A stretch of 64,000 nt of DNA from Halobacillus ihumii (GTDB lineage Bacteria > Bacillota > Bacilli > Bacillales > Halobacillaceae). The first letter of the stretch is position 1. Each line of letters starts with the position of its first letter. The DNA lies in the NCBI RefSeq assembly GCF_902726645.1, contig NZ_CACVAO010000001.1:868001-932000 (forward strand). Direction: 5' to 3'. This document shows, piece after piece, positions 4,009 through 63,351 of the stretch. Position numbers and translations under genes: made by a program. The notes beneath the pieces are model-generated. The model did no database searches, had not been told where the DNA came from, and worked only from the letters and a program-made list of their open reading frames with translations.

Positions 4009-4034
4009 GAGGCTTCTCTATTGTAAGAAGCCTC
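4009..4034 (-). terminator. Terminator downstream of the SinI-like gene
   Basis: A 9-bp stem GAGGCTTCT/AGAAGCCTC (4009-4017 with 4026-4034) lies just downstream of the minus-strand SinI-like stop. Read on the minus strand, it is followed by TTTTCTG. Confidence 0.7.
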
Positions 4035-4047
4035 CTTTTATTCAGAT

Positions 4048-4164
4048 CTACCGTTTCATAAAAAATTGTCTTATTTCTTCTTTAGTTAAGCCGATATCCC
4101 TAGCCTGCTTCATCAAAGCTACCCAGTCAGCGTCCAAACTCCTCTTACTCTTTACCTTATTCAA
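4048..4164 (-). CDS. SinI-like anti-repressor peptide (38 aa)
   Basis: This small gene starts at a TTG preceded by GGAGGGAG at 9-nt spacing. The core DADWVALMKQARDIGLTK followed by EEIRQFFMKR matches the SinI dimerisation domain. In Bacillus, SinI pairs with the equivalent helical hairpin of SinR, removes it from DNA and releases matrix genes. The Asp-x-Asp/Glu-Trp-x-x-Leu signature, the short turn (GLTKEEI) and the second helix are all present. It stands alone, with no sinR beside it, behind a c-di-GMP-I riboswitch. The likely partner is the SinR-type protein at 41.9-42.1 kb or an unlinked SinR. The ribosome binding site lies in the loop of a 7-bp hairpin (TGAATGA/TCATTCA), suggesting translational control. 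Confidence 0.8.
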   Translation of the reverse strand: MNKVKSKRSLDADWVALMKQARDIGLTKEEIRQFFMKR

Positions 4165-4187
4165 TGAATGACTCTCCCTCCATCATT

Positions 4188-4305
4188 CACCCTCAGGCAA
4201 CCCGGCCGCCATAACCATTCTAGGAGTATGTAATAAACACGGGGATGGCATTAGACCCGTAGCTTTGCGTCCTTATTTTTCAATAAGTTTGCCTTTTTGC
4301 AAGGA
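4188..4305 (-). ncRNA. Cyclic di-GMP-I (GEMM) riboswitch
   Basis: On the minus strand the sequence runs AAGGCAAAC, a 6-bp stem CTTATT/AATAAG capped by a GAAA tetraloop, then GGACGCAAAGC. A second arm with GGGTCTAA ... ATGGCGGCCGGGTTGCC follows. These are the invariant blocks of the GEMM-I aptamer: the GNRA tetraloop, its GGTTGCC receptor region, and the ACGCAAAGC core. It ends about 25 nt before the TTG of the SinI-like gene and starts about 20 nt after a promoter -10, so it is the 5' leader of that gene. The likely output is translational, because the ribosome binding site sits in a small hairpin right after the aptamer. The direction of the response is not deducible. Confidence 0.88.
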
Positions 4306-4324
4306 GAAGTTGTTTGTTATCCTA

Positions 4325-4352
4325 ATTATAATCCAGGATTGTTAAAAAGCAA
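4325..4352 (-). promoter_or_regulatory. SigA-type promoter of the riboswitch/SinI-like transcript
   Basis: On the minus strand, TTGCTT (4352-4347) and TATAAT (4330-4325) are separated by 16 nt and sit directly upstream of the aptamer. Confidence 0.6.
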
Positions 4353-6373: not shown

Positions 6374-7489
6374 ATGGCCACGAAAACGATTCTCGTAAAG
6401 CTAAAGCATGTAACGAAGAAAAAACACAAACAGTTCATGGATGAACAGGCTGCCTATGCCTCATGCGTGAATCATTGTGTGGAACGCCTCCTAAACGGCG
6501 AAAAGCTTTCGTCTAAAAATATATCCTTTCCCTTAAAATCAGCCATTAAGAACGAAGGCATCCGTCGAGCGAGGAAAGCTGTTTCCGATTTTAAGAAAGG
6601 CTTAGCGAAAACAATTCCTGTATTCCGAAATTCCCTTACCATCAAGATTAATAACCAAAATTGGAACACTGTCGATCAAAACGGAAGGTGGTATATCGCC
6701 TTCACAAGCAACCAAGGTAAAAAAGCCCTTCCTGTGGTTGAAACAAAAGATGTCCAAAGCTATTTTCCATTCTTAACAACCAAAACCAGAGAGTTCCGAG
6801 GAACAATAGAATTACTTCGTAAAGGAAGACGATGGTATGTCGCCATTCCCATCCAAGTAAGTTCTGACTTGGACCTAGAAAACAGCCATCCATCCGTTAC
6901 GAAACCATTAATGGATTACACATCTATTGGTGTTGATCTAGGGTTGAGACACCTTGTGGTTCTGTCTGAACCGACAAGTGGCAAACGCCAATTCTTTTCG
7001 GGAAAAGAAGTCGGCTATAAACGACGTCACTTTCGTTCCCTACGTCGTTCGTTAGGAAAGAAAAAGGCACAGCGTGCTATGGAACGCGTAGGTCAAAAAG
7101 AAAGCCGTTGGATGAAAGACTACAACCGAAAATTAGCTCAAGATATTGTAACGTTTGCTCAGCAATTCGAGAAACCCATGATTAAACTCGAACAACTGGA
7201 CAATATCCGAAAAACTTGTCGCAGCATGAAACGGGCAGATAAAACGATTCATTCATGGGCGTTTTATCAGTTGAAGCAATGCATCAAAGAACGAGCAGCT
7301 ACAGTCAACATCCCTGTGGTGGATATCGATCCGTATCAAACAAGCCAAACCTGCTTCGCATGTAAGCATACGGAGCGATCCAATCGAAAGCGTGAGGTAT
7401 TCCACTGTAAGAAATGCGGTCATAAAGCTCATGCCGATCTCAATGCCAGTCGAAACATCGCAACAAGCACGAACTTGGCGGCGTCCTAA
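6374..7489 (+). CDS. tnpB: TnpB RNA-guided nuclease (IS605 OrfB family)
   Basis: A 371-residue TnpB. The RuvC-like acidic residues are visible in GVDLGLRHLVVL (Asp, about residue 189), IKLEQLDNI (Glu, about 274) and CGHKAHADLNASRNIA (Asp, about 356). A zinc finger C-x2-C ... C-x2-C (CFAC and CKKC) lies between the last two. TnpB proteins use an omega-RNA from the element's right end to cut DNA next to a short TAM and help retain the transposon; they are the ancestors of Cas12. The length is normal and no catalytic residue is missing, so it looks active. The ATG follows GGAGGTG at good spacing. Confidence 0.93.
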   Translation: MATKTILVKLKHVTKKKHKQFMDEQAAYASCVNHCVERLLNGEKLSSKNISFPLKSAIKNEGIRRARKAVSDFKKGLAKTIPVFRNSLTIKINNQNWNTVDQNGRWYIAFTSNQGKKALPVVETKDVQSYFPFLTTKTREFRGTIELLRKGRRWYVAIPIQVSSDLDLENSHPSVTKPLMDYTSIGVDLGLRHLVVLSEPTSGKRQFFSGKEVGYKRRHFRSLRRSLGKKKAQRAMERVGQKESRWMKDYNRKLAQDIVTFAQQFEKPMIKLEQLDNIRKTCRSMKRADKTIHSWAFYQLKQCIKERAATVNIPVVDIDPYQTSQTCFACKHTERSNRKREVFHCKKCGHKAHADLNASRNIATSTNLAAS

Positions 7490-41717: not shown

Positions 41718-41840
41718 TTAGGCTCGTTCTCCTGAAATGAATTGTTTAATTTCTTCAATGCTGAGTCCAAGGTGTCTGGCTTCTTCTATTAGCTCGATCC
41801 ATTCCTGATCAAGTTGTTCTTGTACATTCGATTCTGCCAT
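41718..41840 (-). CDS. sinI: SinI-like / SinR C-terminal dimerisation domain as a separate frame (40 aa)
   Basis: A 40-residue frame with the SinI core LDQEWIELIEEARHLGLS then IEEIKQFIS, matching the helical hairpin used for SinI-SinI, SinR-SinR and SinI-SinR pairing. It has its own GAAGGG site. Its ATG lies 18 nt after the stop of the HTH gene and in the same frame, so removing one TAA would join them into a 123-residue protein with the SinR layout. It could be a free antagonist, a subunit that re-forms a two-chain SinR, or part of a read-through product. Gene order (HTH first, SinI second) is the reverse of B. subtilis. Confidence 0.8.
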   Translation of the reverse strand: MAESNVQEQLDQEWIELIEEARHLGLSIEEIKQFISGERA

Positions 41841-41858
41841 ATGATTCCCTTCTCTCAT

Positions 41859-42089
41859 TTATTTTGCTTGATAATTGTTATATGTCTGATTGATTAATAA
41901 TAATTCCTCGAGTGGAACATTTAATGTATCTGCAAATTTTTTCATAACAATAAGGGAAGGATTCCTTTGAATTCCTCGTTCTATATTGCTGATATATGAT
42001 TTTGAAACGCCTGACATTTTAGCGAATTGATTTACGGTATATCCTTGTCCAAGACGCAAGACTCGTATTCTTTCTCCAATGGTTGTCAC
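41859..42089 (-). CDS. sinR: SinR-type HTH protein lacking the C-terminal dimerisation domain
   Basis: A 76-residue XRE-family DNA-binding protein: TIGERIRVLRLGQGYTVNQF, AKMSGVSKSYISNIERGIQR and NPSLIVMKKFADTLNVPLEEL cover the five-helix HTH of SinR. B. subtilis SinR has 111 residues with a second, SinI-like domain; here the frame stops after LINQTYNNYQAK. The missing domain follows immediately in frame beyond one TAA. The HTH alone may bind DNA only weakly without dimerisation. The start is a GTG with AAGGA at good spacing. A terminator after tasA separates it from the matrix operon, so it likely has its own promoter. Confidence 0.85.
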   Translation of the reverse strand: MTTIGERIRVLRLGQGYTVNQFAKMSGVSKSYISNIERGIQRNPSLIVMKKFADTLNVPLEELLLINQTYNNYQAK

Positions 42090-50128: not shown

Positions 50129-50503
50129 ATGATGGCAAAAAAAAGTAAGCAATATGACTATGACTTAAAAGAAGTAAAACGACTAATTGAGGAAACCGAT
50201 AAAAACTATCGGGAAATTTCTCAGGATACCGGGTGTCCTTACGCAAGTGTTGTGTATCATGGTCGAAAAATTCGCGGCCGAGTCAATCGAAGCAAACATG
50301 ACATGATCAGTGAATTACCACAGTCTACACTTTTTTCATCGGAAGAAAAGATCCAAGAGCCAATGCCGTTATTCGATGGCACTACTTTAAACATCTCGAG
50401 AAACAATATTCCCATCCATGATGCTGAACAAGAAGCAGTCAGGATGATTAAAGCAGCCAGAGCTCTCGGATTGAGCAAAATCAACATAACGATCGAGAAA
50501 TAA
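50129..50503 (+). CDS. Small helix-turn-helix-like protein, unknown
   Basis: A 124-residue soluble protein. The N-terminal part (YDLKEVKRLIEETDKNYREI then SQDTGCPYASVVYHGRKIRG) looks like a short DNA-binding HTH that reads as a DNA-contacting helix followed by a basic stretch. The middle is a linker (LPQSTLFSSEEKIQEPMPLF). The C-terminus (EQEAVRMIKAARALGLSKIN) forms a helix. The family is not recognised. The ATG follows AAAGGGG. It is a monocistronic unit with its own terminator. Confidence 0.65.
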   Translation: MMAKKSKQYDYDLKEVKRLIEETDKNYREISQDTGCPYASVVYHGRKIRGRVNRSKHDMISELPQSTLFSSEEKIQEPMPLFDGTTLNISRNNIPIHDAEQEAVRMIKAARALGLSKINITIEK

Positions 50504-62928: not shown

Positions 62929-62970
62929 CACGTAACACCCTCCTATCTCCCGTAGGATTAACATGTTCTT

Positions 62971-63134
62971 CTTTATGGCAGGTCTCCTGGCTCAGAATCA
63001 ACAGCCTTTTCTCCTTCCCATTTCGAGTCAGAAACAGTGAAATTCGCAAAATGCCTCCTCTATACAGTGGCGGGACCGCGTTGGAATTGCACCAATCTTC
63101 CCTTTTCAGCTTCAATCATGAAGCCACCATAAAG
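62971..63134 (-). ncRNA. Cobalamin (AdoCbl) riboswitch
   Basis: On the minus strand the aptamer shows AAAAGGGAAG ... GGTGCAATTCC, the invariant GCGGTCCCGCCACTGTA core, and the B12 box GAGCCAGGAGACCTGCC (62993-62977). It is closed by a perfect 8-bp P1 helix CTTTATGG/CCATAAAG (63134-63127 with 62978-62971). A hairpin over the following ribosome binding site suggests translational control. Normally such a switch precedes B12 uptake, cobalt transport or B12-independent enzyme genes; none follows here before a terminator. Confidence 0.92.
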
Positions 63135-63351
63135 CCTATTAAATTTTGTTTGAGGATACTTGTCCTCCTCTTCACTATCGGCGAGAGCCAGCCAGTTGTC
63201 AATAAGAATGGATCAACCTTAAAATATTCACACTAAAACACCTGAGTTCACTGAACTATTTATTTTAACTTTTTGTTCTACAAAAAATTCAGACGTATAT
63301 AATAAATTGCTGACTGTGACTTCATCGATTTTGTCAGAAAGGAGTGTACAA

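Follow-up and report, generated by a model that had tools for sequence, protein, structure and literature searches.

A predicted c-di-GMP-I riboswitch lies directly in front of a small SinI-family gene in the window, that is, in the whole 64,000-nucleotide stretch of DNA analysed here, and the same pairing is recurrent, yet not universal, in related genomes. Sequence data give good support to the proposal that c-di-GMP would control sinI directly by way of RNA. The first-pass annotation of this DNA had suggested that the second messenger feeds through RNA into Sin control; sequence and recurrence back this suggestion, whereas the nearby SinR partner and the novelty that accompanied it did not survive the analysis.

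In the model relative, the SinI family unlocks slime-matrix genes. To our knowledge, there is little understanding of the c-di-GMP input to Gram-positive biofilm control, because in the B. subtilis model sinI is switched on by Spo0A~P.

Results

The riboswitch and its gene

The locus is read from the reverse strand and comprises the following features, in the direction of transcription.

4325..4330, reverse strand: TATAAT (-10 element), 27 nt before the aptamer, exact in 13/18 hairpin-type leaders
4193..4303, reverse strand: predicted c-di-GMP-I (GEMM-I) riboswitch aptamer, RF01051 73.4 bits, cut-off 35
4165..4189, reverse strand: TGAATGA/TCATTCA stem-loop, ribosome binding site within the loop, 9 pairs kept in 18/18 leaders
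4176..4182, reverse strand: Shine-Dalgarno (SD) sequence TGGAGGG, anti-SD duplex -9.8 kcal/mol, spacing 11
4048..4164, reverse strand: sinI-like gene, 38 codons, TTG start, PF08671 50.7 bits, Halobacillus homologues of 38 and 40 aa
4005..4034, reverse strand: inverted repeat followed by a T run downstream of the gene, terminator-like, read from the sequence, possibly bidirectional

The first-pass annotation had described a complete GEMM-I aptamer and proposed a covariance-model search as a check. Run with cmscan, this search aligned 4303-4193 to positions 1-87 of the 87 of RF01051 (E 1.7e-12), a full-length match with the conserved core. The GG of GGCAAAC and the 3' CC, which are ligand contacts in the Vc2 structure, are both found. 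The aptamer of H. hunanensis (G001) obtains an RF01051 score equal to that of the window, and its locus has the same aptamer, hairpin, start codon and gene order. The window organism is Halobacillus-like, the homologues besides the window's own protein being those of H. hunanensis and H. naozhouensis. A cobalamin riboswitch (114.3 bits) lies elsewhere in the window, at 62960-63146 on the reverse strand.

The 38-codon open reading frame (ORF) exceeds the PF08671 cut-off of 31.4 bits (E 1.5e-13), with the match spanning residues 10-36 of the peptide. The best PDB matches of the peptide include two SinI chains at E about 0.002, and residues 7-36 align with SinI chain 1b0n_B (E 0.0017), over a helical part that presumably contacts SinR; SinR chains match the peptide weakly (E 0.09-0.32). 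The TTG is the first residue of both annotated Halobacillus homologues. The SinI signature and the TTG start reported in the first reading hold, as does the position of the gene directly behind the riboswitch. The cut-off of the SinI equivalog NF046031 is missed (33.7 vs 80 bits), the peptide having 38 aa against a model of 58 positions, and the peptide is a predicted member of the SinI domain family PF08671, not of that equivalog. Five homologues differ at too few sites for the codon positions of the changes to prove coding on their own. Taken together, the window holds a predicted c-di-GMP-I riboswitch on a SinI-family gene, c-di-GMP being the predicted ligand.

Leader architecture

The ribosome binding site was said to sit in the loop of the TGAATGA/TCATTCA hairpin, and it does: the hairpin spans 4189-4165 and TGGAGGG occupies 4182-4176. 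In the alignment of 18 hairpin-type leaders, window included, the 9 predicted pairs (the stem plus two outer/inner neighbours) are intact in 18/18. These leaders were selected by the 3' arm, so that only the 5' arm is informative. Among the alignment cells, which are not independent events, 25 carry a one-sided change; two-sided changes and broken pairs are absent.

The promoter and the terminator that the first-pass annotation had given to this transcript fare less evenly. The exact TATAAT at 4330-4325 stands and is conserved, all 18 hairpin-type leaders matching it with at most one mismatch; the -35 is poor, however, agreeing with the consensus at 3/6 positions in the window, and a stricter consensus scan reported no promoter at the TATAAT site. 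Downstream of the gene, an inverted repeat at 4034-4009 followed by TTTT can be read from the sequence, but the terminator scan scored the 4009-4034 repeat on the forward strand only, and the repeat may therefore be bidirectional. An upstream Spo0A-box-like TATCGAA reads TATCGGA in H. hunanensis and was not used.

Recurrence in related genomes

A search for the same arrangement in relatives, also proposed in the first reading, found it repeatedly. Across 44 whole genomes of the family, 27 contain a total of 39 aptamer matches, of which 24 (18 genomes) are followed by a SinI domain that starts 44-83 nt further on. The order sample, made up of every tenth genome from an order-wide search (38 genomes, 29 with any SinI match), yielded at least 27 linked pairs in at least 21 genomes among the 150 matches listed, the SinI domain in each case lying 35-81 nt downstream on the aptamer's own strand. 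A SinI match occurs in just 52 of 299 class genomes; in the 35 of these 52 not seen before, the other 17 being left out, the pair is present in at least 7 by eye (G427, G598, G686, G553, G437, G457, G462). The linked counts for the order sample and the 35 class genomes are lower bounds, and the aptamer searches of family and order used Infernal's stricter filters, by which weak matches are lost. By our own arithmetic, with about three SinI domains per 4-Mb genome, the chance expectation is far below one such pair.

The pair is missing from 26/44 family genomes, though all 44 have a SinI match, and from the matches listed for 8/29 SinI-bearing order genomes. The B. subtilis control genome has a SinI match and no RF01051 match. 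At one locus of the order sample (L136, G060:C16:30837-31630) two riboswitch-sinI units succeed each other on one strand, separated by about 0.7 kb, and a SinR-type frame comes after them.

One family genome bears on the identity of the ligand. G029 (probably H. naozhouensis) is the sole one of the 44 without a GGDEF match, and its sinI aptamer (L026 1501-1611) is the only one of 67 without the GG of GGCAAAC; the aptamers of G050, G024 and G010 failed the automatic GGCAAAC pattern at another position and have the GG. For EAL, G029 gave a single match, a 33-position piece below cut-off, in a search of four genomes. It keeps sinI despite the damaged-looking aptamer. This co-loss, a single case, fits c-di-GMP as the ligand.

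Folding of the expression platform

In the window the start codon follows the aptamer by 28 nt, and in 51/52 loci the distance is 16-36 nt when the start is picked by SD score. For G030 the automatic pick is an ATG at 43 nt, where TTG would give 25 nt; for leader selection and for the folding and duplex tests we fixed its SD and its start (TTG, 25 nt) manually. A start codon so close behind the aptamer leaves little room for a terminator, and translation is therefore likely the controlled step.

What it costs to open the SD and the start codon was calculated in two states, one leaving the aptamer free and one confining its pairing to itself. The latter state, in which the aptamer is barred from outside pairing, is a proxy for the bound state that by design can solely ease opening, and shuffle controls (single-letter shuffles) were used for this reason; an initial test with a laxer mask and no control is superseded by them. 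The sets were the 18 hairpin-type leaders (window included), the 7 other leaders of the family and the 27 of the order sample.

The order leaders open more easily by a mean of 3.40 kcal/mol with the aptamer set aside, a difference that none of 45 shuffle sets reaches. For the 7 other family leaders the mean difference is 1.94 kcal/mol, reached by 8/45 shuffle sets, and for the hairpin type it is 0.48 kcal/mol, equalled or surpassed by 45/45, which is no switch signal. The window's own difference of 1.1 kcal/mol falls inside the range of its 12 shuffles (0.2-3.3). Treated as one set, the 25 family loci average 0.89, within 12 shuffle sets (0.89-1.78). The window platform thus shows no simple swap, and its hairpin seems to be insulated from the aptamer.

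By eye in many order leaders, and in a single fold of G270, the aptamer 3' end pairs with the SD region, which is what an ON switch would require. When this contact was scored as a simple duplex of aptamer 3' end and platform, however, the order leaders did not rise above shuffles (mean z -0.50, 4/27 at <=5%). Leader-platform pairing stands out solely in the seven family loci with another platform (mean z -2.67, 5/7 at <=5%). A long-range helix between the aptamer 3' end and the first sinI codons, anti-P1-like in single folds, was dropped because in the 18 hairpin-type leaders it does not clearly beat shuffles (mean z -0.56, 2/18 at <=5%).

These folds bear on the direction of the switch. A bound aptamer could instead extend or stack its P1 on the hairpin that holds the ribosome binding site and so lower SinI, which would then be made at low c-di-GMP. 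Such an OFF switch would suit the hairpin-type start site, which is fairly closed even once the aptamer has been set aside (mean 4.74 kcal/mol), and some hairpin-type leaders that become harder to open (-2.2, -1.4, -1.4). The order leaders, however, point to ON, and a favourable P1 term, calculated without shuffle control, lowers the opening cost by more than 1 kcal/mol for 12/18 hairpin-type, 5/7 other and 19/27 order leaders and raises it for 1/18, 1/7 and 5/27. Array data from B. thuringiensis, as cited in PMC7793685 with the route unspecified, also have sinI up at high c-di-GMP. We regard the OFF switch as unlikely. As a general mechanism, translational control of the ON type has the best support, and we infer its direction from the signal in the order sample only, not from the window leader.

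The CsrA consensus is a GGA in a hairpin loop, and the hairpin-type leader has a GGA motif in the loop over its SD. A putative CsrA-like protein might thus read the leader at this loop, with the aptamer modulating the contact. That the aptamer makes almost no difference to the cost of opening the hairpin type would agree with such a reader. By eye, however, the ANGGA motif is missing from several of the 18 loops, and we think it very unlikely that this is how the leader works.

The SinR partner and the gene neighbourhood

The first-pass annotation had placed the SinR-type target of the peptide 37 kb away in the same window. Two features are found there.

41859..42089, reverse strand: SinR-like protein with a helix-turn-helix (HTH) only, 76 aa, PF01381 64.2 bits, no PF08671
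41718..41858, reverse strand: another SinI-like ORF, immediately behind the HTH gene, start probably the ATG at 41840, PF08671 49.2 bits

The protein at 41859-42089 lacks the C-terminal SinI-binding domain and so falls outside the definition of SinR, HTH and domain in one chain; a stop codon separates the HTH gene (42089-41859) from the SinI-like ORF (41858-41718). The proposed target is thus an HTH-only protein, and no full-length SinR was found in the 64-kb window. The split pair (41718-42089, reverse strand) stands after tasA-like genes. HTH-only relatives occur in nine of the eleven genomes read, other regions having been fetched for G030 and G031, and in six relatives (G001, G029, G026, G032, G033, G025) a separate SinI ORF directly follows the HTH-only gene, which argues against a simply broken gene. 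H. hunanensis has three full-length SinR-type genes, located elsewhere in its genome. On the forward strand of the window, a 124-aa ORF at 50129-50503 has no Pfam match at E 0.1 and scores 9.8 bits with our own SinI seed model, below the inclusion threshold.

Judged by length (more than 100 aa) and a SinI domain alone, a SinR-type frame lies downstream on the same strand in 8 of the 24 linked family loci, and within about 1.2 kb downstream in 18 of the 27 order loci (7 on the same strand, 11 convergent).

The riboswitch could be real and the peptide still have another task, in which it does not act on full-length SinR but pairs with the product of the second SinI-like ORF or works together with the HTH-only protein. 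The small size of the peptide, its score below the equivalog cut-off and the split pair of the six relatives would all be compatible with this. The riboswitch-sinI unit nevertheless stands beside a SinR-type frame in many relatives, and the peptide aligns to the helical portion of the 1b0n SinI chain; a task apart from SinR is, in our estimate, distinctly unlikely.

The window unit itself neighbours Wzz and tyrosine-kinase genes, a neighbourhood that sinI has in 4/7 genomes read (G001, G029, G025 and G032, not G044, G002 and G041). Between the Wzz and TagO-like genes of the window lies a 371-aa ORF (6374-7489, forward strand) whose zinc-ribbon end we take to be a TnpB-like motif. It looks like an inserted element, because the Wzz and TagO-like genes of H. 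hunanensis (L001) are just about 200 nt apart.

Relation to known systems

The first reading knew of no described case of this link. Table 4 of a 2015 paper on B. methanolicus MGA3 (PMC4342826) already predicts one, a putative '(c-di-GMP)-sinI' riboswitch. The likeness is the same riboswitch ligand class before sinI; the difference is that the case there is an entry in a genome-wide list of putative riboswitches, given in that table without mechanism or test. The riboswitch-sinI link is not new as a prediction, and what recurs here was noted once before in the literature found. Within the open-licence literature, subscription papers lying mostly outside it, we found no tested c-di-GMP riboswitch on sinI.

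Compared with the known c-di-GMP-I class (RF01051), the window element differs in having no terminator between aptamer and gene, in placing the SD in a separate hairpin loop and in its target, a SinI-family peptide. With sinI-sinR of B. subtilis it shares the anti-repressor SinI domain, whereas that genome has no RF01051 match. Bacillaceae are also represented by the 'on' riboswitch of cbpA and the 'off' riboswitch of mcpA in B. thuringiensis, which according to PMC7793685 respond to c-di-GMP as well; these precede collagen adhesion and chemotaxis proteins, not an anti-repressor.

A further parallel is found in Paenibacillus, where a c-di-GMP-I riboswitch beside a SinR homologue has been proposed to act as antisense (PMC9943018). 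The riboswitch class is the same, and in that account it is placed antisense to sinR, whereas the loci of that shape read here carry a sense SinI ORF. If the proposal applied to our loci, the c-di-GMP-controlled transcript would act on a convergent sinR and the small ORF would be incidental, in keeping with the 11/27 order loci that have a convergent SinR-type frame. The window, however, has no sinR adjoining the riboswitch, and the ORF in the 52 linked loci has a SinI domain, a start codon and an SD-like stretch upstream. Moreover, three large-genome species (L159, L160, L161) combine the riboswitch, a small SinI ORF (TTG likely) and a convergent SinR-type ORF, the last whole in two of them and cut by the fetched stretch in L161. 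An antisense role at our loci is therefore highly improbable, and the three loci suggest, by analogy, another reading of 'antisense' sinR riboswitches.

Proposed mechanism and implications

Based on these observations, we propose that a short transcript begins with the c-di-GMP-I riboswitch, which sets the level of the SinI-like peptide at the start of translation. Bound c-di-GMP would most likely raise SinI synthesis, as an ON switch. The SinI so made would bind a full-length repressor of the SinR type whose gene lies in another part of the genome, and the repressor so bound would release the matrix and exopolysaccharide genes. The scheme as a whole, in which a leader riboswitch sets SinI translation, likely ON, and SinI relieves the matrix genes via full-length SinR, is in our judgement probable. 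Its aptamer, SinI domain, spacing and recurrence are read directly from the DNA; we infer ligand binding, the ON direction, the SinR partner and the target genes.

At the scale of the class, the chances seem to us about even that control of SinI by c-di-GMP-I riboswitches, mostly translational and ON, is widespread and perhaps ancestral in SinI-bearing Bacilli, with B. subtilis as the exception, and that at least some 'antisense' sinR riboswitches are sense leaders of an overlooked sinI. A recurrent RNA link from c-di-GMP to SinI/SinR would offer a direct route that needs no protein receptor and can be tested; 'antisense' riboswitches linked to sinR would then be read differently. The pairing of riboswitch and SinI may be a common and little-noticed way toward surface-attached life.
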